Assembly: GCA_016278515.1 (NCBI GenBank)
Contig: JADQBR010000036.1
Span: 1-64,000, forward strand
Direction of reading: 5' to 3'
Length of the DNA: 64,000 nt
From: Bacillota bacterium
Lineage (GTDB): Bacteria > Bacillota > JADQBR01
Below, piece after piece: positions 4,078-23,234 of this stretch. A program made the translations under genes and the position numbers. The stretch's first letter is position 1. Each line of letters begins with the position of its first letter. The notes beneath the pieces are model-generated. The model searched no databases, was not told the DNA's origin, and was given only the letters and a program-made list of their open reading frames with translations.

Positions 4078-4782
4078 TTATATGATTTGCAGCATGTCCC
4101 GCACTTTTAAAGGTTCGGGTGAATAATACCCTTCCCCGTATTCCACCTTAATCAAACTACCGAGATATCCATTGCGCGACTGTATTCTTTTTAACAAGTG
4201 CGGAAGTTCCGTCGGGTTTTGCCCCGGCCATGTCCCAAATTGGGAAACATGAGCCATAATGGCTCGCTGTTTAGTTTGATGAACTTTCGTAATGTCAACC
4301 ACAAATGATGGTTCCCTAGTATAATGCAAGAAATAATAAAATAGTCTGGCTGGACGATGCGCTGGAATGTCCGAATACCTTTTCCAAAGACCGGAAATAA
4401 ACATTGCCTGGGTTACTAGCCCACTGGCAGCAATATGATCCGGATGGCGATCGTTATTGTCCGGTGCAATTAGTACTTTTGGCTTAAAGCGCCTTATTAC
4501 ACGAACCACAGGTTCCAAAAACTCTTCACTTACTGTCAGTCTGCTGTCTGGAAGTTTTAAATTAACGCGATCACTGACTCCTAGAATATCTGCCGCATTT
4601 TGGGCCTCGACTATTCTTTCTTCCGGAGTACCATTGGAGGCCATCTCCCCCTGAGTGAGGTCAACCAGTACAACTTTTCTACCCAAAGAAACTTCTCTTG
4701 CAACTAAGCCCCCTGCACCAATTTCTAGATCATCAGGATGTGCACCAAAGACCATAATGTCGCATGGGTTTTGTTTATTCAT
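4078..4782 (-). CDS. bshB1: bacillithiol biosynthesis deacetylase BshB1 (PIG-L family)
   Basis: BshB1 removes the acetyl group from GlcNAc-malate to give glucosaminyl-malate, the second step of bacillithiol synthesis. The 234-residue protein starts with the PIG-L zinc motif GAHPDDLEIG and carries the second metal-site motif D-R-H-P-D-H near residue 120. The sequence around T-x-G-E-M-A-S-N-G-T is typical of the BshB1 branch. The ATG at 4782 has AGGAG eight bases upstream; the longer reading frame lacks a ribosome site. It follows bshC closely, which supports the pathway. bshA is not in the window. Confidence 0.9.
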   Translation of the reverse strand: MNKQNPCDIMVFGAHPDDLEIGAGGLVAREVSLGRKVVLVDLTQGEMASNGTPEERIVEAQNAADILGVSDRVNLKLPDSRLTVSEEFLEPVVRVIRRFKPKVLIAPDNNDRHPDHIAASGLVTQAMFISGLWKRYSDIPAHRPARLFYYFLHYTREPSFVVDITKVHQTKQRAIMAHVSQFGTWPGQNPTELPHLLKRIQSRNGYLGSLIKVEYGEGYYSPEPLKVRDMLQII

Positions 4783-4805
4783 ACCATTACATCTCCTTTC
4801 AGAAA

Positions 4806-6437
4806 TCATTTTAAAGTATATATTTGGTGGAACCATCCGTCAGTAAAATCCACATCCCTAAATATATTCCGCAAGTCTTCACCAAAGTAAAATAATAAAG
4901 AATAAAAACTGTATATTTGTTCTTGCGGTTTATTTGACGGTAATAATATTGCCTCTGTCTCCTTAACTCTATTAATGTAGGATTTGTGTTGTTTTCTAAC
5001 AGTTTGCCAAGCCTTCTTTTTCATATATTCAAGGCGTCCAATGGTCTTGTCTAATTCTCGATTCCCTAACTGTTGATATTTTTTATCCATTAACGTTAAA
5101 CTGTTAATAAGCTGCTGGTATTGGTTCTTAATCGTCTGCTCAACTATGGTAAAATGCTCTTCAATATGTTTTGGCATTTGCTCCCCCACGTAAGCCCTTA
5201 ACTTTACCCCAAACCCCTCCGCCAGCCATCGGTCATCTTGAAAAAGCTGTTCAATGACCTCATTTTCTTTCCGACCGACCACAGTTACTTGTGCCCTGGG
5301 AAAGATAGGCGGCATGGGTACTCCAGATACCTGATAAATTTCTTTTAACTGCGCTAAGTAGTTAATTTCTCCTGGGCCAGCTACAAAGGCTGCTGTAGGT
5401 AGTAAATAATCTTGCAGAACCGGTCGTAAGGAAACCCCGGGACTAAACCTCTCAGGATATCGTTTAGCAAGGTCAATTAGCTGCGGCAGCGTATACTCCC
5501 ATTTCCCTAAATCGCTGCGTGTAGAAACCTTACCATCATGCAGATAAAGCGGTACCCTATCACCATCTATATAAAAAAACAAATGCATATGTTCCTGCTG
5601 TTTCTTTATTGCCGGCTCATAACCTAAACTTCTCATATCCTGAGCGCCATTAGCTGCCGCCGCTTGTAAGTTGACATTATCTGTAATTGTTTGTTCGATT
5701 AATGGACCGGCCAGCTGTCTTAGCTGGGGTAACATGGGATCCAACAGAATCAAACCTTCTTTTTCAAACAATTTTAGCATGGCTTTTGCAAACCAGTCAC
5801 ACAATGTTTCGGAGGATGCTGCCAATTCCCGCTGCTGCTCCAACAGTCTTATATTATTCTCTGTTTCCGGTATGACAGCACCCATTTGGGCAATAAGCTG
5901 CTCAGGGTTTTCTATTTCAATACAACCAACTGATGGGCGTCCCTGCGGTCTTACTGGCGTAGCCAACGATCGTTGACGCCTTTTGGATGATATTAGGTGA
6001 AGGCGGTTAACTTCGGCAAAATCATGATCTTCACTGGCCATCCAGAAAATGGGAACCACCGGTTTTTTGTGCTGTCGCTGTAATTTGTGGCTTAAAGCAA
6101 CTGCTGTCATAGCTTTGTAGACGGTTAGGGCAGGACCGGTGAGTAAACCTGTCTGTTGCCCGGTAACTACGGCCGTACACCCCGCATTCTCTAAAAGAGA
6201 AATATTATCTAAAGTTTTTCTGCCAGCACCCATGCGTCGATTATAGCGGCCCAAGCATTGTGATAAGACGCGTCGATGCTGTTCCGTCTTGCTGACCTTA
6301 CTGGCATGATCCGCTAGACCCTGTTCATCAGGAAAGCTGGCAAAGCGCTTAAGTAATAATTGTTCTTTCTTTGAATAGTAATCCTGGGCAATAATGTTGC
6401 CTGTAAAAGGTTGAGTACGTTTAATTTGCATATCCAT
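4806..6437 (-). CDS. bshC: bacillithiol biosynthesis cysteine-adding enzyme BshC
   Basis: BshC is the putative ligase that adds cysteine to glucosaminyl-malate, the last step to the thiol bacillithiol. The 543-residue length equals the family norm. Family features visible are V-T-G-Q-Q-T-G-L-L-T-G-P near residue 95, FWMASEDHDFAEVN, a GPGEINYLAQLK segment, and a long C-terminal coiled coil. The ATG at 6437 has AGGAG five bases upstream. bshB1 follows with a 23-base gap, so the two form an operon. A PerR-type peroxide regulator lies just upstream, although a terminator separates the two genes. Confidence 0.93.
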   Translation of the reverse strand: MDMQIKRTQPFTGNIIAQDYYSKKEQLLLKRFASFPDEQGLADHASKVSKTEQHRRVLSQCLGRYNRRMGAGRKTLDNISLLENAGCTAVVTGQQTGLLTGPALTVYKAMTAVALSHKLQRQHKKPVVPIFWMASEDHDFAEVNRLHLISSKRRQRSLATPVRPQGRPSVGCIEIENPEQLIAQMGAVIPETENNIRLLEQQRELAASSETLCDWFAKAMLKLFEKEGLILLDPMLPQLRQLAGPLIEQTITDNVNLQAAAANGAQDMRSLGYEPAIKKQQEHMHLFFYIDGDRVPLYLHDGKVSTRSDLGKWEYTLPQLIDLAKRYPERFSPGVSLRPVLQDYLLPTAAFVAGPGEINYLAQLKEIYQVSGVPMPPIFPRAQVTVVGRKENEVIEQLFQDDRWLAEGFGVKLRAYVGEQMPKHIEEHFTIVEQTIKNQYQQLINSLTLMDKKYQQLGNRELDKTIGRLEYMKKKAWQTVRKQHKSYINRVKETEAILLPSNKPQEQIYSFYSLLFYFGEDLRNIFRDVDFTDGWFHQIYTLK

Positions 6438-7806: not shown

Positions 7807-7854
7807 GGACAAACCTAAGCAATGCCAAATTTTTGGCATTGCTTAGGTTTGTCC
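7807..7854. terminator. 23-bp hairpin shared by two convergent genes
   Basis: The arms 7807-7829 and 7832-7854 are perfect reverse complements around a 2-base centre, giving a stem of 23 pairs. The right arm contains the stop codon (7843-7845) and the last codons of the convergent P-loop gene. The left arm begins 13 bases after the small acidic ORF. It probably ends transcription from both sides. Confidence 0.7.
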
Positions 7855-8907
7855 TGTAAACAAGGCCTTAAACAGTATGTCTCCGTTTCGCTTAATATCA
7901 ATGGCAGGTACGCTAATAACCTTATCAACCGTCTCGACCAATTTAACCGCATCGACGTATGCTGGTTCGTAATCCTGAGCTTCAAATCTATACTTAGGGA
8001 AAAAAGGATTAACAGTTACAGCTACTAATGGCAACTTTTGAGCCACTAGTAATTTGACACCATAGTTCTCCAACCTTTCAAACAAACGATGAATATTACC
8101 GACACCACCGGCTAGTGCCAGCTTAATTGGATCCGCAACGCAGATGTCAAAATTTAACTCATTGGAAATAATGTGCTCCCCTAGTTGTTTCCAAAGTTTC
8201 TCTTGAACCACACCGGGAATTTCTAGTCTTTTGGTTTCAGATGTCAGGTGTTCCAGTAGTTCAAATAGTTGCCTATTAGTAAATAATGAAGCAAAACCCA
8301 TCCTATGTTTCTTTCTAAATCCGTTTTGGACGGTAATTTCAGTTGACAGTCTTTCCTTTAATTGGGGCAGTCCGAATAAATAAGCAATACTATGGGTCTC
8401 GTACGCCAGCCTGGTAATATCAGGTGATCGAGCGGCCCCGGTCGCCAAAATGAACCCTTCAGTCTCCACCATGGGAGCTAGCCGGTTTAAAGCCCCATCT
8501 ACCAGAATTATGTCAAGATCAAGCGTTTTAAGTTCATTTATGATAATCCTAAGATCGCTGCTTTTATTAGGCCCCGCAATTACCACTAATCCTTCTTTTT
8601 CCACTCTGCCAATAATAATGTTTCCCAAAGGCGTGCTTATAGGCGTTTCCTTAATTACTTGAATGCGCGCAGTACTTACCGGCAGGCACCGTCTAGCAAC
8701 GGCCACAGTGGTATTGACGGAGACTGGTATCCTTGGCTTGGGCAGCCCGGTGACGTTATCCAATCTTTCACCATCATACCCAATACTAGTCAAACCGGTT
8801 GAGAAACCTTTTTTTTTAAACATATCAAGTAGATAATTTGTTGTAGTAGTTTTACCAGTATTTTTTGCTGTGCCTGCTATGCCAATTACATTATATAGTA
8901 AGCCCAT
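7843..8907 (-). CDS. P-loop NTPase of unknown function next to a B12 mutase
   Basis: This 354-residue protein opens with a nucleotide-binding loop in GIAGTAKNTGKTTTTNYLL, like CobQ/MobB-type P-loop proteins. It has a likely Walker-B-type strand DIILVDGALNRLAP near residue 135, followed by a TGAARSPD segment. No membrane segments are seen. It starts one base after the B12-protein stop codon, so it is in the same operon. Adenosylcobalamin mutases often need ATP- or GTP-driven chaperones that exchange damaged cofactor, and that role fits its position. This is inference; I do not recognise a named family. Its stop codon lies inside a long hairpin. Confidence 0.6.
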   Translation of the reverse strand: MGLLYNVIGIAGTAKNTGKTTTTNYLLDMFKKKGFSTGLTSIGYDGERLDNVTGLPKPRIPVSVNTTVAVARRCLPVSTARIQVIKETPISTPLGNIIIGRVEKEGLVVIAGPNKSSDLRIIINELKTLDLDIILVDGALNRLAPMVETEGFILATGAARSPDITRLAYETHSIAYLFGLPQLKERLSTEITVQNGFRKKHRMGFASLFTNRQLFELLEHLTSETKRLEIPGVVQEKLWKQLGEHIISNELNFDICVADPIKLALAGGVGNIHRLFERLENYGVKLLVAQKLPLVAVTVNPFFPKYRFEAQDYEPAYVDAVKLVETVDKVISVPAIDIKRNGDILFKALFTGQT

Positions 8908-8908
8908 G

Positions 8909-10738
8909 TTAAGTCACCGTATGCTCTACCGTGTCTCTACCCGCTCGGCCGGGATACGCTCCCTCTTCACGTGTTCCTAAATTTCCGTCGTAAAGCGCCT
9001 GGACAAAGTCTCCCGTCTGCAACACATCGTCAATTACTTTATCTATTTCTGAAACTAATCGTTCTCCCCATTGTTCAGCTTTACCAGACGGACTGATTCC
9101 TGTGGAGCCAAAAAAACGAAAACCTTCCTGGACAGCCTTTAAAGTATCTGTTTTAGAAGGAACCGATATTGGTCCGCCGGAGTATGCTTCGTCTGAAGAG
9201 GCGATAGATATTGCATCTACACCCAAGGATGAGGCTAAACACGCGTGCAGACCTGTACTCATGGCAGACTGAACTCTGTCTTCAGTTTGGGTCAGAAAAC
9301 CAATTGGCGCGCCCGGCCAAATAGGTGCATCAATTATGTTCTTTAAAGCATATATTTTTGCTGCATTGAAATCAACATAGTTTCCCTCCATCTGTTCTCC
9401 AACCATCGCTTCCGGTGAGTAGGCGAATAATGGCTGTAAAATAGGCTTACCGCCAAGCATTACGCCTAGTGTACTAACAATAAGCATACCGGCAAATGCC
9501 TTATGCGCCGGCACCCCAGCTAATTCTTCATTTGTAACCACATCAAAGGACATCCCGTATTGAATCGCATAACGAATGGCATGGTATCCATCCACCGTTA
9601 ATCTCTCAGGGTCCGTGCCGGCACCTAAGGAACCGTAACACATATTTATTTTGGTCATATCCGCACCCAGTTTACCTGCTAAGATAACTGTCTCCGGAGT
9701 ATTTAATCCTCTGTGGGCTCTCACCTGCCAAAGAGTGGAAGGTTCGAGAGCACCATGAATCCTATTCAAATTGGCAGGTGTAATTACTGTTCCATCTTCC
9801 TGATGCGTTAAAAAACCGTCAAAGAACCCCTCTGTTCTAGCACCCCAAGAAGGGTCAAAATGCACTACCCCATCTGCACCCCATGCTTCGCTCGCCTTAA
9901 TATGGCCAATATCCATAAAAGGACATCCGGTACCATACTGATTAAATATTACCGGTCTGCTTTTTACATGCTGAACCTTACTTAACATTATTCGTTCTTT
10001 TGTTTCTTGCAAGAATTCTTCTAAGGCTATTACTTCCTCTCTTGTAAAACGTCTAGTTTTAGGATGCAGCTCACCTTTTAAATAATAATTTTTCGGCTGT
10101 TCACCACAAAGATGTGGGTATTCCTTATCAAATTCGTCGTTTCCCTTGCGATTACGCCAACGTCCGACATCCCATAGTTCTTCCCGTGCAACGGCCCGTT
10201 TGACTCCCGGACTGGTTTTATCTTTTGCCCATTTCCTTATCTGGCCGGCCACTTGTTCTAACTTATTCCCCATGGATTTATTGATAAACTTATAGGAATA
10301 ACTGCTGGTAATGTCCTGCTTATCCTTTTTAACACCAGTATCTTCTTTGCTAATTTCTCGTCCTTCCACAAATGCTACTGCCTGTTCAACGGTGGTGCCC
10401 GGTCCAAATCCGGCGTCAAACCCCAATTCGGCCGCCAGTTCAGGCCTGACAGCCATGCCCCCTATACCGAGAGTTACTTTGTCTCGTAAACCGCTGGCAT
10501 CAACTAAATCCACAAACCTGGATAATAATTCAGCAACACCATACCCTAAAGTTCTGCTGATTAAGACCGTGCCTGCCTCTTTGTCGATGATTTCTTGAAT
10601 TATCTCCTCTACAGGTAAGTCAGGAGGTAAAAGATAAGTCTTATGACCCGCCTCTTCCAGTCCCCGCCTAATCATTTTCAGCCCAATATCGTGGACAGGG
10701 TCCAATGGGGCCAATAAAACTTTTTTTATTTCAGTCAT
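8909..10738 (-). CDS. cobalamin-binding mutase-like protein (N-terminal B12 domain fused to a barrel)
   Basis: This 609-residue protein has an N-terminal base-off/His-on cobalamin domain. The signature D-P-V-H-D-I-G lies at residues 13-19, S-R-T at 61-63 and the glycine pair at 93-94, in the order found in glutamate and methylmalonyl mutases. A linker of about 100 residues leads to a large domain (about 240-590) resembling a mutase TIM barrel, with segments such as KINMCYGSLGAG and IASSDEAYSGGP. A carbon-skeleton or amino-group migration using adenosylcobalamin is the likely chemistry. Ornithine and lysine aminomutases place the B12 domain last, so this order is different. The ATG overlaps the upstream small gene by eight bases and a P-loop NTPase follows. 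The substrate is unknown. Confidence 0.7.
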   Translation of the reverse strand: MTEIKKVLLAPLDPVHDIGLKMIRRGLEEAGHKTYLLPPDLPVEEIIQEIIDKEAGTVLISRTLGYGVAELLSRFVDLVDASGLRDKVTLGIGGMAVRPELAAELGFDAGFGPGTTVEQAVAFVEGREISKEDTGVKKDKQDITSSYSYKFINKSMGNKLEQVAGQIRKWAKDKTSPGVKRAVAREELWDVGRWRNRKGNDEFDKEYPHLCGEQPKNYYLKGELHPKTRRFTREEVIALEEFLQETKERIMLSKVQHVKSRPVIFNQYGTGCPFMDIGHIKASEAWGADGVVHFDPSWGARTEGFFDGFLTHQEDGTVITPANLNRIHGALEPSTLWQVRAHRGLNTPETVILAGKLGADMTKINMCYGSLGAGTDPERLTVDGYHAIRYAIQYGMSFDVVTNEELAGVPAHKAFAGMLIVSTLGVMLGGKPILQPLFAYSPEAMVGEQMEGNYVDFNAAKIYALKNIIDAPIWPGAPIGFLTQTEDRVQSAMSTGLHACLASSLGVDAISIASSDEAYSGGPISVPSKTDTLKAVQEGFRFFGSTGISPSGKAEQWGERLVSEIDKVIDDVLQTGDFVQALYDGNLGTREEGAYPGRAGRDTVEHTVT

Positions 10739-11042
10739 CCAACTTTACCTCCTTATCCATTTTCAGCCAACCATATTCGTCACCGGATCGATGAATATAA
10801 GCTCGAGCTCTAACACGTGCACCAACGCCTAAAAAGTCTAGGTTAACCACATCAATGTCGTTAAACCCCATCTCTTTCATTAATTCTAACGCTAAAGACC
10901 TCGCTTCGTCTTCCGTGTCACAAATTAGAAAAGTTTCAACATCTAAGGCATCCATAACGTGATTTAATGCTTTGGTCAAGACCATAGCCTCCTTTAAATA
11001 CTTTAAATTTTTTCTAAGGTTAGTATCAATCTGACTAGCCAT
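10731..11042 (-). CDS. small conserved-looking partner of the B12 protein, unknown
   Basis: This 103-residue protein has an N-terminal helical part (about 1-35) and an alpha/beta part with DVETFLICDTEDEARSLAL and a strand-rich VGARVRARAYIHR. The stop codon overlaps the start of the B12 mutase gene, so the two should be made in fixed ratio, as are the small and large subunits of several B12 mutases. It does not resemble OraS as I remember it. The ATG at 11042 has no clear ribosome site; a codon four residues earlier is the alternative. A subunit role is inference. Confidence 0.6.
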   Translation of the reverse strand: MASQIDTNLRKNLKYLKEAMVLTKALNHVMDALDVETFLICDTEDEARSLALELMKEMGFNDIDVVNLDFLGVGARVRARAYIHRSGDEYGWLKMDKEVKLDD

Positions 11043-11169
11043 ATTTATGTACACAGAGTTATCACATTCTTAGGCTACGTGCATAAGGTGTAGCATCAAT
11101 AAAATGTTACAATTCATTTTTTGTAACGCTAAATTATTTTCACAAATAAAAAAGGAGTTGACAAAAATT

Positions 11170-11955
11170 ATGCAAGCTCAAAAATTTGTCCAGGACCTTT
11201 GCCCTGACTATTATTCAGACCAATGCCCTTGTATAATCACCCAGGTTAATTACTGCCCCGTTTGTTCTTTTTTGGGGAGTTCCCATGATTGCAACGACTG
11301 TAACTGGGCCGGGAAATGTATCCAATTGGAGGAGAAATTTAAAGATTTTGGGCCTCCGACTATGGCTTTAAAGGAAGGTAAAATCCAGCATATAAAAAAC
11401 TTCCTATTGCCTGGGGCAGGCATCTTATTCTTTGGTTACGCCACCAAATCCATGATAAACTCAATATCCATTCTATCGACTATTAACCTAATATCTCACC
11501 AACAACCTCATTACTGTTCCATTCCGGGCGTAGTGTTAGATATCTACCATGATATGCAGTTGGTTGTGCTGGGGCTTAACACATTATCAATTAGGGAAAA
11601 ATATCTCATTCAACAAAATAAAGAAATGTCCGTCCATATTACCAAACAACCGGCTGTGCTGGGGCTTAACAAATTAAATAGAAATGAAAAAACTCTCATT
11701 GTATCGTCCAAGTTTGGAAACCTTTTGGCTGAACCAATAGCCCAACAGTTTAATAATGCAGTTATTCAACCGCCCCGCGACTTGGCACCATTAATAAAAC
11801 AAAGGCTAAGCCAGTGGGCTCAAGAAGATATCTCAACAGATGTTAGCCAAATTGTTAGTTTAGGCAGTCATACCCAACATAAAAAGCTATTGCTCAGCCT
11901 TAATACTAAACAGTCTCTGCAAATGTCCTTGCTAAATAACAATTTGTTTCACTAA
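11170..11955 (+). CDS. cysteine-rich protein with an internal 30-residue duplication, unknown
   Basis: This 261-residue protein has a dense N-terminal cysteine region (about residues 10-50) with CPDYYSDQCPC, NYCPVC and CNDCNWAGKC. That region could bind zinc or an Fe-S cluster. The central part contains two adjacent 30-residue units, each starting V-L-G-L-N-x-L and continuing E-K-x-L-I. The underlying DNA repeats 21 of 22 bases at 11565-11586 and 11655-11676. The ATG at 11170 follows AAGGAG at 12 bases; an upstream frame extension lacks a ribosome site. It is divergent from the B12 operon and convergent with the FAD/PLP operon. I do not recognise the family. Confidence 0.65.
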   Translation: MQAQKFVQDLCPDYYSDQCPCIITQVNYCPVCSFLGSSHDCNDCNWAGKCIQLEEKFKDFGPPTMALKEGKIQHIKNFLLPGAGILFFGYATKSMINSISILSTINLISHQQPHYCSIPGVVLDIYHDMQLVVLGLNTLSIREKYLIQQNKEMSVHITKQPAVLGLNKLNRNEKTLIVSSKFGNLLAEPIAQQFNNAVIQPPRDLAPLIKQRLSQWAQEDISTDVSQIVSLGSHTQHKKLLLSLNTKQSLQMSLLNNNLFH

Positions 11956-11974
11956 AAGCTTACAACCTCTTTAC

Positions 11975-12024
11975 CAACAAAAGGTACGAAAAGGAAATAT
12001 TTATCCTTCTCGTACCTTTTGTTG
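11975..12024. terminator. bidirectional terminator
   Basis: CAACAAAAGGTACGA (11975-11989) pairs with TCGTACCTTTTGTTG (12010-12024). A further five pairs continue after one mismatch, around an 8-base loop. It sits between the convergent Cys-rich gene and the FAD oxidoreductase gene. Confidence 0.8.
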
Positions 12025-12038
12025 ATAATGAAAATCCT

Positions 12039-13325
12039 CTATTTTACTGACTGATTAAAGACATTGGTTAAGCCTGCTTGCTCTGCTCGTTGTTTAATTT
12101 CATTGATATCCGTGGTGTAAAGATTATTTTCCTTCATTCTATTAAAGTATACTGAACCTGAGAATGTATACTTTTTCGTAATACCTTCTTTTGTTCTCAT
12201 TTGTTTACCAACATAACTAACGGCATCTCCTACAGCTAAGCTATCGGGGATTGTTAATAAATCTTTTTTGCGAGCATACCGAACTGCGTTATGACCGGCT
12301 AATGTTCCAGTACAGATAGCTTCAGTATGTCCTACAAGCAAGCCGGCCTTCTCACCACCGCAAAAAAGATTATCCAACCCTTCCACTTTCAATGAATCAT
12401 CGCGATAGGATATGGCTAAGTAGCGCATGGAATTACCCATACCGCCTGCATAGGGATCTTCAAACCTGGCGTTCTCAAAACCAGGAATCTGCCTTAGTGT
12501 ATCTAAAGGATAAAAAGGCGACATCAGTTTTGCATGCCCTGTATCCAAAAGAATAATATTATCATTGAATTCTTTCAATGCATATTGTTGACATGCCTTA
12601 GTCTCTAATGCCTTTTCTCCTTTTCTTAAATGCTCGGGAATCGCTATTAAGGCAACTCCAGTCTTGTCCAATTGACTGACTATATCTTCGGACAGGGAGT
12701 CCTTATGCAGTTTACAGGAACCGCTCATGGCACCGATGGAACCATCGCCCTTTTGTCCCATAAATTCATCGGCACCAGCTTTAGCAGCCAGGCTAATCCG
12801 CGGGCCAAAACTAGGACAACGATAAACACACATGGCGCAACCATTACCATACTTACTACAATTTCCTTGGGGCCCGGCTGTGCCGGTTGTTTCTACAAAA
12901 ACATCAGCCTCATAAGTCTCTCCATCTTCGGTTGTTACAGACGTTATGCGACTGCCGTCTGTTTCTAACCCTTTAACCCTGGACAAAGTCTTAACATTAA
13001 TTCCCGCATTTTCAAGTCTTTTCTTTACAGCCGGCTCTATCAAAGCGATATCATAAAGTGTTGCATGTTTATGACCTGGGAACTCAATGTTTTGGTGACG
13101 AGCATTATTATCAGTGTCTTCAAAGAGTTCCCCTCCGCCCATTGCCATCATTTCTTCCGTGGCAGTAAAGCGGCCGTTATTACGCATGATACCTCCGACG
13201 AGACCGGTTCCCAACAACATATCCGTCCGTTCAAGCAAAGTAACTTCATCTGCACCTGCTTTTTTAGCGGCAAGGCTGGCTCCGGAGCCAGCCCACCCAC
13301 CGCCAACGACTACGACCTTAACCAT
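12039..13325 (-). CDS. FAD-dependent oxidoreductase with a cysteine cluster
   Basis: This 428-residue flavoprotein starts with a dinucleotide-binding fold, V-V-V-G-G-G-W-A-G-S-G, ending in the acidic L-L-E-R. A C-terminal FAD segment reads NLFCGGEKAGLLVGHTEA. In the middle GNCSKYGNGCAMCVYRCP offers at least four cysteines that could hold an Fe-S cluster or a redox disulfide. It resembles the GidA/FixC superfamily but is not MnmG. Two ATGs are adjacent; the second (13325) is better spaced from AGGAGG. The PLP-enzyme gene ends 13 bases upstream and ridA precedes that, so the enzyme may oxidise an amine or amino acid to an imine that RidA hydrolyses. The substrate is unknown. Confidence 0.75.
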   Translation of the reverse strand: MVKVVVVGGGWAGSGASLAAKKAGADEVTLLERTDMLLGTGLVGGIMRNNGRFTATEEMMAMGGGELFEDTDNNARHQNIEFPGHKHATLYDIALIEPAVKKRLENAGINVKTLSRVKGLETDGSRITSVTTEDGETYEADVFVETTGTAGPQGNCSKYGNGCAMCVYRCPSFGPRISLAAKAGADEFMGQKGDGSIGAMSGSCKLHKDSLSEDIVSQLDKTGVALIAIPEHLRKGEKALETKACQQYALKEFNDNIILLDTGHAKLMSPFYPLDTLRQIPGFENARFEDPYAGGMGNSMRYLAISYRDDSLKVEGLDNLFCGGEKAGLLVGHTEAICTGTLAGHNAVRYARKKDLLTIPDSLAVGDAVSYVGKQMRTKEGITKKYTFSGSVYFNRMKENNLYTTDINEIKQRAEQAGLTNVFNQSVK

Positions 13326-13338
13326 CATATTCCTCCTT

Positions 13339-14799
13339 CTATAGAATGCCTGCGTATTTACTAAGGATTTCGATCAACTTAACTTGGGCCTTGACACCGT
13401 ATCGCATTACATCTTCTTTTAGCTGTCCATTTTCATCTGTAGTACCTAGATCCGGAGAGATATAGATGTTACCATCATAAGCAACTGTAGGAATTACACC
13501 CATCTGCTTCATACCATCCTGAAGCAAGTTAGTCCCCGAATACATATCTTCAATAGAGAATATAGGGATTCCCATTGTACCGTCTTTCCAAGTACCTTCA
13601 TAGTTGACCTCTACTGCTTTAGAATTGTAGCTCTTGGTAATGCTAATTCCTTCTCTAAGTTTAGGGTCTAATTCTCCAAACTCTTCTTTGACGATTCTTT
13701 CCAGATCGTCAACTGGCTTGGTCAGTACTTCAGGATTATCCCTTAGCACTTTTAGGGCCTGAATTTGAGTGAGTAAGGCCTCTTTACCTGGATCAAAGGT
13801 AACATAGGCTGCCTTACCATAAGAAGATGGCGTTCCCCATCGATCACCGTGCATACCTAATGCTCTACGAATAGTAACCATGTATTCTTCTTTACCAATT
13901 ATTAAACCACTGGTAGCAGCACCGGTAGCCTTATCCATAGAGTAAATCATTACATCTGCACCGGTTTTTCTTGGATCGGTTCCAACAAAAGGTAAGCCCC
14001 ATGCATTATCAACCACATAAGGCAGATCATAGGAATGGGCTAAATCAGCTATAAATTTCTGCAGTAAAGGCGTACCCTCTTCATCTTTTGCACCGTAACC
14101 GTAACCCGGTGTCTCATATGCAAGCGAAGTGAAACCAGTTAACATAGACTCATGAATCTCAGCATGGAGAGCCAATTTTTCAATGGACGCTTCCGGATCT
14201 ACTCCCGTCAACAAAGGCACTGGGTGATGCTTAATTCCATGTACAGCATAATCTGCACCTTCCAATTTAACAATCACAACATCCAAGTTATTTTGGCGTT
14301 TACCGTTAAAACCTAGTTCTCCCGGTGTAGAGCCGCGGTCAGCCAAAATATCTTTAAATCTTCCTGGGAATGGCCTGCCGTAACCTCCCTGATGGTGTAA
14401 GTGCTTCTCGTAGGGTGCGATATAACGCGCACGATAGTTATCGCCTCGTCCCTGCATCGGCGGCGTAAATAAGGAATCAAAACTTACCCATAGTCCTGCT
14501 TCACAAGTGCTGACAGATGCTGCGTCATATTCATCGCCATAAACATCCTTGACCAATTCGCGAATTTGATCCATCAAAGCGGCAAGCGGAATAACCTTCT
14601 TTGCTCCCTCTTCACTTGCTTGTAAGATATCATCACGCATTGGTGCAGGGCAACCGGAAATAGCACCAGTCATACCGAATGTTCCACGAATGTCTTTGGG
14701 AATCCCTATTTGATCCGCAGCCTTCCTTGCATCAGCATAAATATTAGCTACATTAGCATGCAGATTCTTATACATTTGAAATTTATATTTATTAGCCAT
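13339..14799 (-). CDS. fold-type-I PLP-dependent enzyme of unknown specificity
   Basis: This 486-residue protein has the fold-type-I PLP signature. An aspartate pairing with the pyridine nitrogen is visible in [12 protein letters not shown], and the likely Schiff-base lysine lies in [15 protein letters not shown]. The N-terminal part has [16 protein letters not shown], and the cofactor phosphate site is probably [10 protein letters not shown]. Aminotransferase, beta-lyase or decarboxylase chemistry are all possible; I cannot assign a named family. The ATG has AGGAGG ten bases upstream. It is encoded between ridA and an FAD oxidoreductase. RidA commonly protects PLP enzymes by hydrolysing enamine and imine intermediates, which makes a functional link likely. 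Confidence 0.75.
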
Positions 14800-14818
14800 C
14801 AGAATTTTGCCTCCTTTA

Positions 14819-15277
14819 TTATTTTACCTTTACAATCATTTCTACTTCTACTGCTGCATCTACAGGTAGTTCATTAACACCCACTGCCGCACGAGCATGC
14901 TGCCCATGCTCTCCAAATATCTCTCCTAGTAATTCTGAAGCTCCATTAATAACCTTTGGCTGATCATTAAAACCTGAAGCACTACTGACAAAACCGGTTA
15001 CTTTCACAATCTGCTTAATATTATCCAGGCTTCCTATCTGGCCTTTAATTACCGCCAAGCAGTTCAGTGCACATACCTTTGCTGCTTCGTAGCCCTGCTC
15101 TAGAGTCATATCTTTCCCTAATTTCCCCTTGAATTTTAACTCTCCATTGACAAAAGGGATTTGACCGGAGGTATAAACATAATCCTCCACCTTTACTGCA
15201 GGCACATAAGCGGCCACAGGTTTTGGAGCTTCCGGCATGGTTAACCCTAATTCCTTTATCTTCGCTTCAAATGACAT
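14819..15277 (-). CDS. RidA-family enamine/imine deaminase
   Basis: This 152-residue member of the RidA/YjgF (L-PSP) family resembles the longer subgroup with an N-terminal segment before the fold. Visible are [14 protein letters not shown], a G-x-x-A-a-x-V-C-A-L-N-C-L segment, and [15 protein letters not shown]. The last contains the conserved arginine that binds the substrate carboxylate. RidA hydrolyses reactive imines released by PLP or flavin enzymes. The ATG at 15277 has AGGAGG seven bases upstream. It is followed after 19 bases by the PLP-enzyme gene, so this may be a dedicated rather than a housekeeping copy. Confidence 0.88.
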
Positions 15278-15370
15278 CCATCTGCCTCCTTTCTCTTGAA
15301 ATTCCATTGAATTAGTCTATTTCTAACTATCTTCCTAATATATTATCTTCTTTGTGAAATAGATTATGCG

Positions 15371-15808
15371 CTACCTTTTTGTGCAACGTATTTCCATTCC
15401 TAACTCCAAGTCCCGTTCTTTCCCGCTTATCCTTTCTTCGGAAAAAATTACTATGTTTAAGTGATTTGGCATGTGAGTAATATCAAAACCGACAACGGTA
15501 CCTATTATATTTCCTAATACATAAAGGTCATCACCAACCACCATCACTCCACCTTGGGTTACCTCCAAGAATCCTAAATATGCTATTTTATTTATTTTCT
15601 TAGTCGGACCCGCTGCAGGTTCGTCCGTTAGTATCAGTTCATGAATGTCTCCTTTTAGTACGGCCCTAGAAATAGGCGCAATAAGTTGAAGATTTCTCTC
15701 CTCCAAACGGCCATCCAGCACCACTACTAATTCTCCTAACATTTCTCGTTTTTTTGTATAGGGATTGCTTTTAAACATTCCTGATTGGTAAGGGTCTGTT
15801 GACGTCAT
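15371..15808 (-). CDS. conserved-looking protein of unknown function, 145 residues
   Basis: The protein is mainly beta, with motifs ELVVVLDGRLEERN, YLGFLEVTQGGVMVVGDDL and NIIGTVVGFDITHMPNHLN. It has no signal peptide or membrane segment. The single histidine-rich point and several acidic residues could bind a metal, but no known motif is evident. It has a good ribosome site and heads the run ridA - PLP enzyme - FAD oxidoreductase with a 93-base gap to ridA, so it may belong to that operon. I do not recognise it. Confidence 0.6.
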   Translation of the reverse strand: MTSTDPYQSGMFKSNPYTKKREMLGELVVVLDGRLEERNLQLIAPISRAVLKGDIHELILTDEPAAGPTKKINKIAYLGFLEVTQGGVMVVGDDLYVLGNIIGTVVGFDITHMPNHLNIVIFSEERISGKERDLELGMEIRCTKR

Positions 15809-16014: not shown

Positions 16015-17016
16015 TTATCTTATCACACCTGTTATTATCAACAAAACAAAAAGCAAATAAAAAAATCCTCCTGACATCAGGCTGAATGGTGTCAGATACT
16101 TATTCCTGCGTAGCTGTATATAAACAATCAAGGTGGAAGTTAACGCAAATGCTGCACTGACCATAGCCGTAAATGTTAAATTCCAGTCAGTCAATGCAAT
16201 ACCTAAAGCAGGAATAAGAGAACTCTGAAATACCATGGCTCCGGTGATGTTCCCCAATGCCAGTGTATCCTTCCCCTTACTAACCCAAATAATACTATTA
16301 AATTTCTCGGGTAATTCCGTAGCTATTGGAGCTATTATTAAGGCCAAAATAAACTGAGGAATCCCTAAAATGCCTGCCAAATGCTCTATGCTGGCTACAA
16401 ATTCTTCTGCTCCAAGGATAATAAGACCCAAAGCTACCAAGACCTGCAATATAACAATTTTAAGATCCGGGTCCGGACTTTTTCTGCTGAAAAATAATGG
16501 ACTTAGGTCGTGTTCCTCACCCAAATCGCCTTCTTTTTTAAGGGTTTGCCATACATAATACCCATATGCACCTACCAGAAAAACCACTACCACCAACTTC
16601 ATTGTATGGCTGGGTAAAAACGCACTCAATACTGCAATAGTGTAGACCATCATAAAAAAGCTTAGGTCCCTAGTCATATTAGAAATATCAACCTTCATTC
16701 TTTTAACATTTCTGCGACGTTTCTTAAATATTATTGCCGCCACACCTACCAAGAAGAATGCCAGCGTAGATAACATAAAAGGCGCACCTAAAATTGCTCC
16801 GATGCCAATGTCATGCCCTTCATCACCTGGACCCAAAATTGCTATTACGGGAATCATCGTTTCAGGTAAAGCTGTTCCCACGGCCGCCAGAATACTTCCG
16901 ACAGCCCCTTCGGATAGATTCAGTTTTTTACCTAACCACTCTATACCATTGGTGAAAACCTCGGCTCCCAACAAAATTATACCAAGTCCCAAAAGTAAAA
17001 AAGCAATGTCAATCAT
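16015..17016 (-). CDS. CaCA-family sodium/calcium exchanger-like membrane protein
   Basis: This 333-residue integral membrane protein has about ten hydrophobic segments in two inverted halves. The first alpha repeat reads GSILAAVGTALPETM and the second LALIIAPIATELPEKFNS. The paired acidic residues in these repeats are the cation-binding glutamates of the Ca2+/cation antiporter superfamily. It would exchange Na+ or H+ for Ca2+ or another cation at the cytoplasmic membrane. The gene stands alone, with its own terminator. The ion cannot be told from sequence. Confidence 0.88.
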   Translation of the reverse strand: MIDIAFLLLGLGIILLGAEVFTNGIEWLGKKLNLSEGAVGSILAAVGTALPETMIPVIAILGPGDEGHDIGIGAILGAPFMLSTLAFFLVGVAAIIFKKRRRNVKRMKVDISNMTRDLSFFMMVYTIAVLSAFLPSHTMKLVVVVFLVGAYGYYVWQTLKKEGDLGEEHDLSPLFFSRKSPDPDLKIVILQVLVALGLIILGAEEFVASIEHLAGILGIPQFILALIIAPIATELPEKFNSIIWVSKGKDTLALGNITGAMVFQSSLIPALGIALTDWNLTFTAMVSAAFALTSTLIVYIQLRRNKYLTPFSLMSGGFFYLLFVLLIITGVIR

Positions 17017-17169: not shown

Positions 17170-18012
17170 TTAGTATTCGTTAGGCATAGTTTTAAGCTGC
17201 TCTAGAGAAAAAACTGGCCCATCCAAACAAACATAACAACTGCCTATATTGCAGCGGCCGCATTTTCCAATCCCGCACTTCATACGCATCTCAAGCGTAG
17301 TAATAATTTGGTCGTTTGTAAACCCTAGTTTCTCCATAACTGGCAGGGTAAACTTAATTCCGATAGGCGGGCCGCAAATTATCGCAATAGTATTCTCTGG
17401 TTTAGGCGCTAATTTCTCAACGAATGGAGGAACAAAATCAACGCTGCCCGTCCATTCATCGTCTCCTCTATCCACAGTGACATCAACACTGCAATTCGGC
17501 ACCTCATGCCAGTTTTCTAACAAATCCTCCTTGAAAACTAAATCCTGTGGAGAACGAGCGCCATAAACAATCTGCATTTTACCGTAGTCTTCCCGGTTAT
17601 TTATACAGTGATATATCATGGTACGCACGGGAGCCAAACCAATACCCATCCCGATAAACAACATATCCTTACCTTTACAAAGATCCACCGGAAAACCATT
17701 GCCATATGGGCCGCGGACACCCACTTCTTGACCTTCTTCAATCTCATGCAATGCATCCGTCACTATACCCGTCTTCTTCAGACTAAACTCTAAATGATCT
17801 TCATCAACGATTCTAACGGAGAACATGGCTTCCCCTATAGACAACAAAGAAAGCATAGCTACCTGTCCCGGCATGGGAGTAAAGGGTCTGCCATTTTCAA
17901 ACTTAATATGAAAAGTCTTTACGTCGGGAGTCTCATCAATTATTTTTGTAACTATTCCTGTAACAGGAACCAATGGATGCTCTTCCAACTGTTTCTTAGC
18001 TGGTTCACTCAT
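17170..18012 (-). CDS. flxA: FlxA/AsrB-like FAD- and NAD(P)-binding subunit
   Basis: This 280-residue ferredoxin-reductase-type flavoprotein would take electrons from NAD(P)H and pass them into the Flx/Hdr complex. It has an N-terminal FAD beta-barrel, the nucleotide-binding GMGIGLAPVR, the reductase motif CGPP, and a C-terminal [2Fe-2S] group CGIGKCGRCNIGSCYVC. This is the plan of sulfite reductase subunit B, hydrogenase gamma subunits and FlxA. The start overlaps the upstream Fe-S gene by eight bases. Placement after hdrCBA-mvhD and two Fe-S subunit genes matches the flxABCD-hdrABC clusters of sulfate reducers. Confidence 0.85.
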   Translation of the reverse strand: MSEPAKKQLEEHPLVPVTGIVTKIIDETPDVKTFHIKFENGRPFTPMPGQVAMLSLLSIGEAMFSVRIVDEDHLEFSLKKTGIVTDALHEIEEGQEVGVRGPYGNGFPVDLCKGKDMLFIGMGIGLAPVRTMIYHCINNREDYGKMQIVYGARSPQDLVFKEDLLENWHEVPNCSVDVTVDRGDDEWTGSVDFVPPFVEKLAPKPENTIAIICGPPIGIKFTLPVMEKLGFTNDQIITTLEMRMKCGIGKCGRCNIGSCYVCLDGPVFSLEQLKTMPNEY

Positions 18013-19003
18013 TTACAGCCACCTCCCCTAGTTCTTTGATAATTCGGGTGATGTCCATATTAACTGGGCACTTTGCCAAACACCTTCCACAACCGACGCA
18101 TGCAACCTTATCATATCTTTCAGGGAAATACTGTAATTTGTGTAAGAAGCGGTTCCGTACCCTTTCCTTTTTTGACGGTCTAGGGTTATGGCCACCTGCC
18201 ATTCTCGTATATTCAGAAAACATACAAGAGTCCCAGCAGCGGAATTGGAAGCCTTCTTCACCAACATTCTTTCTTCTTATATCAAAGCAGTGACAGGTGG
18301 GACACAAATACGTGCAAGCACCGCAGCCTATGCACTTGCGACTCAATTCTTCCCAATAAGGATGCTCAAACATCTTGGCCAGCTTTTCTGCCAGTCCCTG
18401 TGGTTCTACCTTTATGATACATTCAGCAGTGTCCGGTTTATCTGCTGATCCATCTTCCAATTCAGAAAGACTATCTAACAAAGCCTTTCCCGCGTCTGTT
18501 TTTGCATCTAATGCCAATTGTTCGCCTAAATCAAACATGACAATGTCAGCATGTTCTGATTCAGATTTATCTATTCCCATGGAGTCACAAAAACAGGTCG
18601 GCTCCGGATCCTTGCAACCTAATGAAATTAAGATTGTGTTATCTCGCTTATTTTTGTAGTAATCATCTTCATAACCCTTCGTTAAAAAGACATCATCCAT
18701 CATCAAGAAGCTTCTCACATCACAAGGTCGAATTGCGAATATTACCTGCTTTTCGGAACCAGCAGCTACTTCCGCCACTTCAGCCTTCATGCCTTTTGTC
18801 GTATAGCGATACATGGTCTCGGTCTGAGGAAATAATAAGTCTTTTGGCGGCAATAATGCATTACTGCTTAAATCCACTTCTTTACCGTCAGTCCACGGTT
18901 GGAATTTTATTACGTCATCTTCATTTACGGGAGCAAACACCTGGGCTTCGCCGGATAAACTATTTAACAAATCTTTTAACTTGCTTTTGTCTAGGATCTT
19001 CAT
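18005..19003 (-). CDS. 4Fe-4S dicluster subunit, AsrA/hydrogenase-beta-like (Flx complex)
   Basis: This 332-residue electron-transfer protein has an N-terminal domain of about 200 residues, including IFAIRPCDVRSFLMMDDVF, as in sulfite reductase subunit A and cytosolic hydrogenase beta subunits. Two C-terminal [4Fe-4S] motifs follow, CIGCGACTYLCP and CVGCGRCLAKCP. It would relay electrons between the FAD/NAD subunit (the next gene, overlapping by eight bases) and the other Fe-S subunits. The ATG at 19003 has AGGAGG upstream; the longer frame has no ribosome site. It corresponds to FlxB or FlxC; which name applies is not certain. Confidence 0.82.
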   Translation of the reverse strand: MKILDKSKLKDLLNSLSGEAQVFAPVNEDDVIKFQPWTDGKEVDLSSNALLPPKDLLFPQTETMYRYTTKGMKAEVAEVAAGSEKQVIFAIRPCDVRSFLMMDDVFLTKGYEDDYYKNKRDNTILISLGCKDPEPTCFCDSMGIDKSESEHADIVMFDLGEQLALDAKTDAGKALLDSLSELEDGSADKPDTAECIIKVEPQGLAEKLAKMFEHPYWEELSRKCIGCGACTYLCPTCHCFDIRRKNVGEEGFQFRCWDSCMFSEYTRMAGGHNPRPSKKERVRNRFLHKLQYFPERYDKVACVGCGRCLAKCPVNMDITRIIKELGEVAVNE

Positions 19004-19019
19004 GGCCACACCTCCTCCT

Positions 19020-19916
19020 TTACATAAATTCCTCTGGATCGTTTTCGTCATACTTACCAAGAGGAGGTTTATCCTCAAGGTCCATTCCTGCATCGTAGTC
19101 ACCAAACAAATTATTTATATCTTTAATTATCTTTTTATTCAAACTCATAATGGGTATATCCATAGGGCATACCCGTTCGCACTCGCCGCACTCAATACAA
19201 CGTCCCGCCACATGCATAGCCCTAGTTAATGCAAAAAATTGATTTTCGGAAGTAACCACTCTCTTACCCAGCCACTCAGGCTCTGCTAAATCAAAACAGC
19301 ACTCGCGACAGTTGCACGCCGGGCAAACATTACGACATGCAAAGCAGCGAATACATTTATCATATTGACTTTTCCAAAAATCATACTTTTCATCAGATGC
19401 CTTTTCCTCCAACTGCAGTACGCTTTCAAAGCGTTTGGTTTCGTCAATTTCAGCAACCACGACTTCGTCGGCCATCAATTCATCAAAAACCATAGGATTG
19501 GGGGTAGTGCAATCGGCACATCTTTCAGCCAAAGGTAACTGGTCAACCTGATTCTCTTTGGCTTTTTTCGCGGCTTCAGCATCTTTCATACCTGGACATG
19601 GAACTCCTAGAATAACTAATTTATCACGGTTTATCTGCTGGTCCTGTAATAAACGGTTAATGCCTCTGGCGTCACACCCTTTAACAAACAAGGCAATCTT
19701 TCCGTCTAAATGCTTATAATCCAACAAATATTTGCTTAGGTTATTTATACAAAATTGATCCCAAACCAACCGATCTGCATCATCGGGATTGGTAATAAAC
19801 ATGGGCGGGGATTGGTACCAAAAAGTACCCTTTTCCCAACCAATAACCAACTTAACCTCTTCCTGTTCCAGCAACTCTTTGGCTTTATTACGCATCTTTT
19901 GTACTATATCCATCAT
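19020..19916 (-). CDS. 4Fe-4S dicluster subunit of the Flx complex
   Basis: This 298-residue iron-sulfur protein has a cysteine-containing N-terminal domain, with KGCDARGIN and VPCPGM in the middle. A dense C-terminal region follows with CIRCFACRNVCPACNCRECC and CIECGECERVCP, giving at least two [4Fe-4S] clusters. It is soluble, with no membrane segment. Its start ATGATG overlaps the mvhD stop codon by four bases, showing coupled translation. By position and composition it is the second Flx Fe-S subunit, sitting between the MvhD-like selenoprotein and the AsrA-like subunit. Confidence 0.82.
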   Translation of the reverse strand: MMDIVQKMRNKAKELLEQEEVKLVIGWEKGTFWYQSPPMFITNPDDADRLVWDQFCINNLSKYLLDYKHLDGKIALFVKGCDARGINRLLQDQQINRDKLVILGVPCPGMKDAEAAKKAKENQVDQLPLAERCADCTTPNPMVFDELMADEVVVAEIDETKRFESVLQLEEKASDEKYDFWKSQYDKCIRCFACRNVCPACNCRECCFDLAEPEWLGKRVVTSENQFFALTRAMHVAGRCIECGECERVCPMDIPIMSLNKKIIKDINNLFGDYDAGMDLEDKPPLGKYDENDPEEFM

Positions 19917-20365
19917 ACTTCATCCCTCAACTTCCTGTTAGGTCCTAACGGCTTAATTCTTTCTGCCAAGTCGTCAATTGTTTGTTTAAACTTGGTCGCC
20001 TCAGAACCGGAAATCCATCTCGCTTGGAAACGCTGGGGATCAATTCCCACAAATTCCAGCATACGCTGCATTAAGAGATAACGTCTGCGAGTGAAATAAT
20101 TGCCACTAACATAGTGGCAGTCACCAGGGTGTCAGCCGGCTACCAGCACTGCATCCGCACCGCGCTGAAATGCCCGCATAATAAACTGAGGATTAGTTCT
20201 CCCAGAGCAAGGAACGCGAATTACCCGTACATTTGGCGGGTACTGCATTCTGTTCAATCCCGCAAGGTCAGCTCCTGCATAAGCACACCAATTGCAGCAA
20301 AATGCTACTATTTTCGGAGTCCATTCCTCTGTTTGGGTGGCCTGTGCTGCTTGTTCTACAGACAT
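19913..20365 (-). CDS. mvhD: MvhD/FlxD-like subunit, predicted selenoprotein (Sec78)
   Basis: MvhD passes electrons from a donor module to HdrA through a [2Fe-2S] cluster. The 150-codon frame has the family motifs [15 protein letters not shown] and R-V-P-C-S-G-R. An in-frame TGA (20132-20134) falls exactly where the family has the first Cys of G-C-H-P-G-D-C-H-Y; the sequence reads [19 protein letters not shown]. The frame then continues with family-like sequence to a stop at 19913. A hairpin with an eight-pair stem begins 12 bases after the TGA, as in bacterial SECIS elements. Selenocysteine is also known in VhuD of Methanococcales. The gene overlaps hdrA by ten bases. Reading it as two broken ORFs would be wrong. 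Confidence 0.9.
20101..20119 (-). promoter_or_regulatory. SECIS-like hairpin of mvhD
   Basis: TGCCACTA and TAGTGGCA form a perfect eight-pair stem with a TGT loop, starting 12 bases 3' of the TGA. GTGA and TCAC can pair further out. The position matches bacterial SECIS elements, which lie within the coding region. Confidence 0.7.
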
Positions 20366-22338: not shown

Positions 22339-23234
22339 ACTTCATCCCTCCTAGTGGCCGGATGTTTTAATAAATCTTTGCCTTCCAGCAATGGCATGGG
22401 GTTTACAAAATGTTTGGTTACTCCCATGTCTTTTGCTGAGTAACCAAATGCCAATCCCATTAGTTCAGTAAAGTAGAAAATAGGAAGATTATATGATTTA
22501 TTGTTTATTTTTTCGATTTCTTTTTGACGCATATCCAAATTCAACATACACAACGGACAAGCTGTAACAATACATTCTGCCCCGTTGACCTTAGCGTCTG
22601 CCAATATGCTGTCTATCATGGGCAGACCAACATCAGACTTGGCAGTTGAATGACCGGCTCCGCAGCATTCAACCTTAAATGACCAATCTACAGCATCAGT
22701 GCCAATATTTTTCATTAATTGATCCATACTCTGAGGATCTTCCGGGTCGTCAAACTGTGTAACTGCCGGCGGTCTAACCAATAAACAGCCGTAGTAGGAA
22801 GCCGCTTTCAAACCATTTAAAGGACGTACTACCTTTTCCTTTACCATATCGGAACTTATAGCACTGGTCATCACATCCAGCAGCGCTTTTACTTCATTGC
22901 TTCCTTGGTAATCCATTTCTATGGCTTTATTTACCTTTTCCTTAGTAGCTACAGAGTGTTTAACAGCCTGTTGTGCTGATTTCAGTCTATTAAAACATGC
23001 AGCGCAAGGCACAGCTACGTCCAATTTCTTAGCCTCGGCTATTGCCAAATTACGTGCAGGCAGCGCCAAAGCCAACAAGTGATCGGTATTATGGGCAGCT
23101 GATGCACCACAACAATTCCATTCGGGAATTTCCCAAAGTTCAATTCCCAAGTGTTTTGCTACAGCCTTTGCAGAAACATTATATTCGATGCCGGTTGCAT
23201 TTAAGGAACAACCTGGATAATAGGCAAACTTCAT
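22335..23234 (-). CDS. hdrB: HdrB, heterodisulfide reductase subunit B
   Basis: HdrB carries the catalytic non-cubane iron-sulfur clusters that cleave the disulfide substrate. The 299-residue protein has two CCG domains. The first includes YYPGCSLNATG, EWNCCGAS and PCAACFNR; the second includes GCLLVRPP, KVECCGAGHS and TACPLCMLN. The spacing fits the HdrB/D family. In bacteria without methanogenic coenzymes the disulfide partner is unknown and may be a DsrC-type or other small thiol. It starts four bases inside the end of hdrC and ends in an ATGA overlap with hdrA. Confidence 0.92.
   Translation of the reverse strand: MKFAYYPGCSLNATGIEYNVSAKAVAKHLGIELWEIPEWNCCGASAAHNTDHLLALALPARNLAIAEAKKLDVAVPCAACFNRLKSAQQAVKHSVATKEKVNKAIEMDYQGSNEVKALLDVMTSAISSDMVKEKVVRPLNGLKAASYYGCLLVRPPAVTQFDDPEDPQSMDQLMKNIGTDAVDWSFKVECCGAGHSTAKSDVGLPMIDSILADAKVNGAECIVTACPLCMLNLDMRQKEIEKINNKSYNLPIFYFTELMGLAFGYSAKDMGVTKHFVNPMPLLEGKDLLKHPATRRDEV

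Follow-up and report, generated by a model that had tools for sequence, protein, structure and literature searches.

A candidate amino acid catabolic module linking a domain-permuted B12-dependent mutase to a fold-type-I PLP protein in Bacillota

The analyzed stretch of DNA, 64,000 nucleotides of a Bacillota bacterium genome (GenBank assembly GCA_016278515.1, contig JADQBR010000036.1, positions 1 to 64,000; hereafter the window), carries at 7843–15808 a gene island that joins a B12-domain mutase-like protein, here called MUT, to a pyridoxal 5'-phosphate (PLP) protein of fold type I. MUT, its small subunit, and the PLP protein form a linked core, while KamB, DUF6917, RidA, and a flavin/iron-sulfur (Fe-S)-like protein are recurrent accessories. 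With confidence slightly above even, we read the island as a catabolic module for an amino acid, gained or lost as a unit, in which a radical step catalyzed by MUT would be followed by cleavage at the PLP protein and the release of a 2-oxoacid. The module probably represents an uncharacterized anaerobic pathway of amino acid catabolism. We regard it as an apparently uncharacterized variant of B12-radical amino acid catabolism, and there is a fair chance that the mutase chemistry itself is new.

Linkage and distribution of the genes

Families were assigned by hidden Markov model (HMM) scans against Pfam and NCBIfam. All seven minus-strand frames and the divergent plus-strand frame were present at the predicted coordinates, confirming the predicted layout of a seven-gene set in two arms around a divergent Cys-rich gene. 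Arm A (7843–11054, minus strand) encodes the KamB-type P-loop protein (7843–8907, 354 aa), MUT (8909–10738, 609 aa), and the small subunit (10731–11054); the gap between the KamB and MUT genes is 1 bp, and the MUT gene overlaps that of the small protein by 8 bp. Arm B (12039–15808, minus strand), with intergenic gaps of 10–63 bp, encodes a GidA-like FAD flavoprotein (12039–13328, 429 aa), the PLP protein (13339–14799, 486 aa), a predicted imine/enamine deaminase of the RidA/YjgF family (14819–15307), and a DUF6917 protein (15371–15808, 145 aa). Among the window proteins, curated cut-offs were passed only by KamB, RidA/YjgF, the B12 domain, the FAD fold, and DUF6917, and the HMM scans returned no curated family model for the whole of MUT or for the PLP protein. 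No curated pathway or family model among those searched covers the set, which agrees with the earlier remark that its author knew of no named pathway with exactly these members.

The gene combination recurs far beyond chance, given about 80 recurring loci and a second copy in the same genome. In this second copy (locus L006, contig C73) the order is KamB-PLP-RidA-MUT-small protein-flavoprotein-DUF6917, with the arms interleaved; it adjoins genes for an FCD-domain regulator and a Na/Ca-exchanger-like protein, and its MUT is 61% identical to that of the window. A scan of GTDB genomes yielded 80 loci, spread over Bacillota, Chloroflexota, Verrucomicrobiota, and a small number of other lineages. 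In the 83 MUT loci comprising the GTDB-scan loci and the copies of the organism's own genome, the small protein was found 79 times, the PLP protein 64, KamB 57, DUF6917 50, the flavoprotein 40, and RidA 34, many of these locus sequences ending at contig ends. Co-occurrence was scored in 299 evenly sampled Bacillota genomes: MUT was present in 27 and the PLP gene in 28, and all 27 genomes with MUT carried the PLP gene (Fisher 1.5e-37). The PLP protein is the obligate partner of MUT. The two genes are also clustered in Chloroflexota and Verrucomicrobiota, where the contexts rest on the GTDB-scan loci, wider sampling having added no genomes. Pairwise identities of MUT correlate with those of the other families (rho 0.62–0.87, against permutation maxima of 0.16–0.37).

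Comparison of two matching sites provides evidence for gain or loss as a block. At locus L023, a set running from DUF6917 to KamB sits between DacF-like and PRK05802-like genes. In genome G037, the corresponding site (locus L236) is bordered by DacF-like and RluB-like genes. It carries two flavoprotein genes and a PRK05802-like gene, and none for DUF6917, RidA, the PLP protein, the small protein, MUT, or KamB; these last six genes were therefore gained or lost as a unit.

It could be argued that two unrelated operons have become adjacent by chance, since a divergent gene parts the arms in the window and relatives have the flavoprotein by itself at the same site. The probability of this is negligible: chance adjacency is ruled out by the genome-wide co-occurrence, the interleaved second copy, and the correlated divergence, and clusters in three phyla speak against it too. 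The same evidence upholds the proposal that the two arms are one functional unit; far from never occurring together, MUT and the PLP protein were nearly perfectly paired. At one locus (L131, G208:C10, 7127–17399), a DUF6917-PLP-flavoprotein-permease group is tandemly duplicated next to a single mutase unit, which indicates that the sub-module is able to multiply independently. Several neighbors in Thermosediminibacterales-type loci (agmatinase/spermidine synthase, Cmk, ScpAB, and RluB) were judged to be housekeeping synteny.

The mutase and its partner proteins

MUT represents a new subfamily, with permuted domains, of the lysine 5,6-/ornithine 4,5-aminomutase superfamily. A B12 domain (residues ~1–128; PF02310, 7.5e-13) is followed by a KamD-like helical and triose-phosphate isomerase (TIM)-barrel region (~157–598), and the dimer-like domain is a separate protein; relative to OraE, this order is permuted. 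The base-off B12-binding motif DxHxxG is present as DPVHDIG at residues 13–19, with D13, H16, and D17 conserved in 80/80 sequences and G19 in 70/80, and by homology MUT is predicted to be of the adenosylcobalamin (AdoCbl) type. In a Foldseek search with the AlphaFold2 (AF2) model (pLDDT 90.9), the best match was 1xrs_A, the alpha subunit of lysine 5,6-aminomutase (E 2.4e-17), and matches ranked in the order lysine 5,6-aminomutase, ornithine 4,5-aminomutase, and glutamate mutase. Alignment of profiles with hhalign placed MUT residues 157–598 on residues 18–495 of KamD (410 columns, E 3e-6) and residues 3–126 on the B12 domain of OraE (E 2e-12), so that a KamD/OraE-type TIM barrel is supported by both methods. 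The hhalign comparison with GlmE gave nothing (probability 0.1%), and kinship of MUT with glutamate mutase was rejected at the level of sequence profiles.

The residues of lysine 5,6-aminomutase that contact PLP are listed in PMC3958899. The Schiff-base lysine (Lys144/Lys629, 11 residues past the cobalt histidine) is missing in MUT, where the lysine segment of OraE lies opposite a four-residue gap and the H+11 position is L in 79/80 sequences. Among the checked barrel contacts only Tyr263 is kept, as Tyr368. According to the residue mapping, which is approximate at ~20% identity, Arg184 corresponds to Asp295, Ser238 to Arg343, Tyr236 to Ala341, Asn299 to Thr402, and Arg268 to Ala373 (Gly in other members), and the 187–189 phosphate loop, including Ser189, falls in a gap. 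Residues R340, H342, R343, and K363 of MUT are invariant in 80/80 sequences. Because MUT lacks the lysine loop that anchors PLP and the majority of the known contacts to this cofactor, the simplest inference is that MUT may be a PLP-free radical enzyme binding a carboxylated substrate. A rearrangement specifically of an amino group is not supported, since the known aminomutase machinery for PLP is missing from MUT.

It is possible that the PLP site was relocated and not lost. MUT would then still be a PLP-dependent aminomutase, with the cofactor held anew by K363 at the end of a barrel strand, the invariant Y368, and the glycine-rich YGSLGxGTD loop, and it could convert, for example, 2,4-diaminobutyrate to 2,3-diaminobutyrate, from which the PLP enzyme would eliminate ammonia. 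Y368 aligns with the PLP-stacking Tyr263, K363 is invariant, and a 2,3-diamino acid processed by an eliminase and RidA would give 2-oxobutyrate directly. However, the Lys144/629 and 187–189 loops are absent, Arg184, Arg268, and Ser238 are replaced by Asp, Ala/Gly, and Arg, respectively, and the proposed substrate is no common nutrient, which makes a relocated site unlikely.

The small protein is encoded directly upstream of MUT. Alignment with 25 relatives places its start likely near 10985, which would give a product of ~84 aa. It is OAM_dimer-like, the trace of this domain (PF16554) being below the cut-off (E 0.002 in the window; detected in 6/26 members, best 1.2e-4). The P-loop protein, with the motif GTAKNTGKTT, scored 231 bits against the reactivase_KamB model NF052386 (cut-off 210), and its gene lies next to that of MUT at the majority of the Bacillota and Chloroflexota loci. 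The original assignment as a P-loop NTPase stands as regards the P-loop; the protein is now predicted to be a KamB reactivase rather than the enzyme of a catalytic step.

The AF2 model of the PLP protein (pLDDT 89.5) has fold type I, and its nearest structures in Foldseek were SelA, SepCysS, and Cap15, with a best query-normalized TM score of ~0.53. K290, in the motif SMDK, and D264 are invariant, and K290 is likely the Schiff-base lysine. HMM scans gave weak fold-type-I matches (DgaE/SelA, best 3e-11) and no match to an OrtB model, and the closest chains by sequence were enzymes of the cystathionine-gamma-lyase class. Since the nearest curated families (DgaE, SelA) and the nearest chains are eliminase-type, an elimination reaction is favored for this protein, without being proven.

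Proposed pathway and accessory genes

According to the proposed pathway, AdoCbl in MUT would generate a 5'-deoxyadenosyl radical and the substrate would be isomerized, with damaged cobalamin being swapped by KamB. The PLP enzyme would then cleave the isomerized amino acid, most likely through a beta- or gamma-elimination that leaves an enamine or imine. RidA, where present, would hydrolyze the imine, whether released by the PLP lyase or formed when the flavoprotein oxidizes an amine; PMC9127364 and PMC7311433 describe RidA proteins as deaminating the enamines made by PLP alpha,beta-eliminases. The carbon would exit as a 2-oxoacid, with 2-oxobutyrate as the best guess, and proceed to propionyl-CoA or propionate. 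The outline of the original scheme, which combined AdoCbl, PLP, and imine chemistry, is thus retained on grounds of homology and because the PLP step and RidA fit the variants seen, while several of its details are not.

The flavoprotein matches the GidA-type FAD family (PF01134, 5e-35). Seven cysteines (C157-x6-C-x2-C-x3-C plus C205, C246, and C323) are invariant in 45/45 homologues, and the C-x6-C-x2-C-x3-C pattern suggests a putative Fe-S cluster. The family was found in 48/149 genomes, being wider than the pathway, and many MUT loci lack it; the flavoprotein is therefore auxiliary and not the fixed step it had been taken for. In genomes where MUT was not found, the flavoprotein has one of two settings: the same site, with the exchanger and YlbF/Fur genes, or a sporulation block with DacF-/SpmAB-like genes, in the latter case partly with a PRK05802-like partner; gene names in this block are those we presume from the sequences. 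RidA (PF14588, 6.4e-27, above the cut-off) is likewise auxiliary, being found at 34 of the 83 loci: its predicted role in clearing imines fits the variants, and its place as a fixed member does not. DUF6917 was assigned by PF21891 (5.7e-47), and a literature search for this family found no paper. In six Chloroflexota loci without the flavoprotein or RidA, a gene of the DapDH family directly follows DUF6917, and the flavoprotein and DapDH were never found together in one of the MUT loci examined. We read this as a non-homologous replacement of the amine-oxidizing step, DapDH standing in for the flavoprotein and RidA.

Gene context offers clues to the product. A tight Verrucomicrobial operon (L072) has the order DUF6917-PrpB-PrpC-PrpD-aceE-like-PLP-small protein-MUT, with Prp matches far above curated cut-offs, and an aceE-like gene also adjoins the PLP gene in L063 and L068. 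In L062, L075, and L076, genes for 2-oxoacid:ferredoxin oxidoreductase are found close to the flavoprotein. In the Paenibacillus locus L048 the PLP gene is missing, and a frameshifted gene of the methionine-gamma-lyase family lies just upstream of DUF6917, preceded by a gene that by eye resembles the ornithine-cyclodeaminase family. Taken together, the PrpBCD/aceE-like operon, the oxidoreductase genes, the lyase-family gene, and the DapDH-like replacement in Chloroflexota suggest that the product would be a 2-oxoacid, for which 2-oxobutyrate is perhaps the best single guess.

Several points weigh against this reading. The full PrpBCD link comes from one locus (L072) and the methionine-gamma-lyase link from one error-rich locus (L048); the DapDH-like genes clear their curated cut-off narrowly (196 vs 180.6 bits); and the flavoprotein family also lives outside the pathway. 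An Rfam search of the window and ten related loci found no riboswitch that could serve as a clue to the substrate, and the recurrent permease had no Pfam or NCBIfam match, providing no transporter family with a known substrate. The enzyme activities of the set are predictions from sequence. In addition, LysA adjoins MUT in five Verrucomicrobial loci, which could point, like the Chloroflexota DapDH, to diaminopimelate or lysine chemistry. Because neither of the two genomes checked has another close LysA besides the one next to MUT, this LysA probably serves plain biosynthesis; together with DapDH, it may still reflect diaminopimelate or lysine chemistry.

In its strongest form, our proposal is that MUT founds a PLP-independent branch of the aminomutase superfamily with an undescribed AdoCbl radical reaction, feeding a new PLP lyase in a hitherto unknown anaerobic 2-oxobutyrate/propionate route of Bacillota, Chloroflexota, and Verrucomicrobiota. 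We hold this form tentatively, with confidence somewhat below even. The number of B12-dependent mutases is small, and any new reaction type among them gives access to a further metabolic route. About 9% of the Bacillota genomes sampled carry the module, which also occurs in two further phyla, yet MUT and the PLP protein are without a curated model. Should MUT operate PLP-free on its aminomutase scaffold, this would show how radical aminomutases and PLP-free mutases interconvert, and DUF6917 and the new PLP family would gain a testable role. A literature search found no papers on the combination of AdoCbl, aminomutase, and RidA, and none on leucine aminomutase.

The divergent gene between the arms (11104–11955, plus strand) encodes a shortened Cys-rich protein resembling PRK05802, a sulfide/dihydroorotate-dehydrogenase-like diaphorase (NF004470, 4.6e-9 over residues 32–215). 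In several Thermosediminibacterales-type loci, full-length homologues adjoin a second flavoprotein, and a close homologue occupies the same place in L130. The gene is only sporadic, an optional neighbor and not a conserved part of the module. A Na/Ca-exchanger-like membrane protein is encoded at 16015–17016 on the minus strand (PF01699, 4.5e-32). It adjoins the flavoprotein also where MUT was not seen (L228, L231, and L238), and it tracks the flavoprotein and the site rather than MUT.

Further neighbors were noted around the island and the flavoprotein. A run of redox genes that by sequence appearance are ferredoxin-, heterodisulfide-reductase-, and sulfite-reductase-like adjoins the island at 17170–23869, and a run of similar appearance adjoins the island or the flavoprotein in L130, L226, L228, L231, and L238. 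At 4078–6437 of the window, bacillithiol BshB/BshC-like genes lie beside Fur- and YlbF-like genes; this neighborhood flanks the flavoprotein in L226 and partly in L228 and L231, where the MUT arm was not seen. In L227, L230, and L233–L236, from genomes where MUT was not found, the flavoprotein, partly with the PRK05802-like diaphorase, lies in a sporulation/housekeeping block, most often with scpB-, dacF- or spmAB-, and rluB-like neighbors, and it is possibly an uncharacterized spore flavoenzyme. Three flavoprotein copies (G052:C2:1330717-1331991, G128:C3:297447-298721, and G095:C1:1698239-1699504) each contain one in-frame TAA/TAG stop.

Comparison with known systems

Among the closest known systems is D-lysine 5,6-aminomutase KamDE with its reactivase KamB, to which MUT is distantly related. 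MUT matches KamD in the alignments over its barrel and its N-terminal helical part, its B12 domain resembles KamE (34% identity to 8t0v_D), and the P-loop protein passes the KamB model. Unlike in KamDE, the domain order of MUT is permuted, the PLP lysine loop is absent, and 6 of the 7 checked PLP-contact positions are altered or deleted. The Kce/Kal/Kdd partner genes are not found beside MUT; partner-like genes lie beside a separate KamDE locus of the same genome (L007, contig C68, 6952–11577). This is a canonical lysine 5,6-aminomutase locus with KamD, KamE, and KamB-like genes, and the organism therefore carries the known mutase system alongside the new one.

Clostridial ornithine clusters contain a small subunit, a B12/barrel protein, a P-loop reactivase, a dehydrogenase, and a PLP enzyme. 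The island resembles the oxidative ornithine pathway in combining a small and a large subunit, a reactivase, a PLP enzyme, and a redox enzyme, and it shares with D-ornithine 4,5-aminomutase OraSE an OAM_dimer-like domain and a B12 domain 31% identical to that of OraE in the profile alignment. It could thus be a divergent ornithine-type pathway, in which MUT would make 2,4-diaminopentanoate or a homologue, the flavoprotein with RidA or the DapDH-like enzyme would act like Ord in oxidizing it, and the OrtAB thiolase would be replaced by the PLP protein together with DUF6917. The same logical order of parts, the common superfamily of the mutases, and an alanine-racemase gene upstream in some Chloroflexota loci are consistent with this. 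However, the dehydrogenase is missing from many loci that retain MUT and the PLP protein, MUT lacks the PLP-binding residues required for such an amino shift, the methylcitrate genes of L072 imply propionyl-CoA instead of acetyl-CoA and alanine, and the PLP protein matches no OrtB model; we hold an ornithine-type pathway to be quite improbable. MUT also differs from OraE in its score (41.5 bits vs a cut-off of 800) and in the N-terminal position of the B12 domain, which is C-terminal in OraE; no OraE above threshold was found in the genome of the window. As regards Ord and OrtAB, neither OrtA nor OrtB was matched by the window proteins in the HMM scan, and a DapDH-family dehydrogenase occurs in Chloroflexota copies only. 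A known lysine or ornithine fermentation cluster is ruled out by the curated cut-offs and the missing partners, the real KamDE locus being elsewhere in the genome.

Glutamate mutase GlmES, the third group in the Foldseek search, likewise combines an AdoCbl-binding B12 domain without the PLP lysine with a barrel enzyme, and the arginines of MUT could bind carboxylates in a similar way. In a corresponding carbon-skeleton route, MUT would isomerize an acidic amino acid, the PLP protein would form 2-aminobutyrate by beta-decarboxylation of the methylaspartate-like product, and 2-oxobutyrate would then arise through the flavoprotein with RidA or through the DapDH-like enzyme. Such a route would suit the missing PLP contacts and the invariant R340-x-H342-R343 set with K363 and R379, and it would account for the exchange of the flavoprotein and RidA for DapDH and for the propionyl-CoA genes. 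On the other side, MUT lacks profile similarity to GlmE, at least 10 genomes with MUT already have a true glutamate mutase, no methylaspartase was seen in the cluster, and the PLP protein is closer to eliminases than to aspartate beta-decarboxylase; we consider this a minor possibility. The elimination favored above agrees with the resemblance of the PLP protein to the DgaE/SelA/cystathionine gamma-lyase class, with which it has the fold and the K290 region in common. Unlike members of this class, it aligns by HMM over ~60 residues and reaches 12–15% identity and a TM score of ~0.5 in the fold search, and it is a separate family of its own without a curated model. The RidA protein is a full-length match to the RidA (YjgF) deaminases with their conserved residues; it scores below the TIGR00004 cut-off and is matched better by the YjgF branch PF14588.

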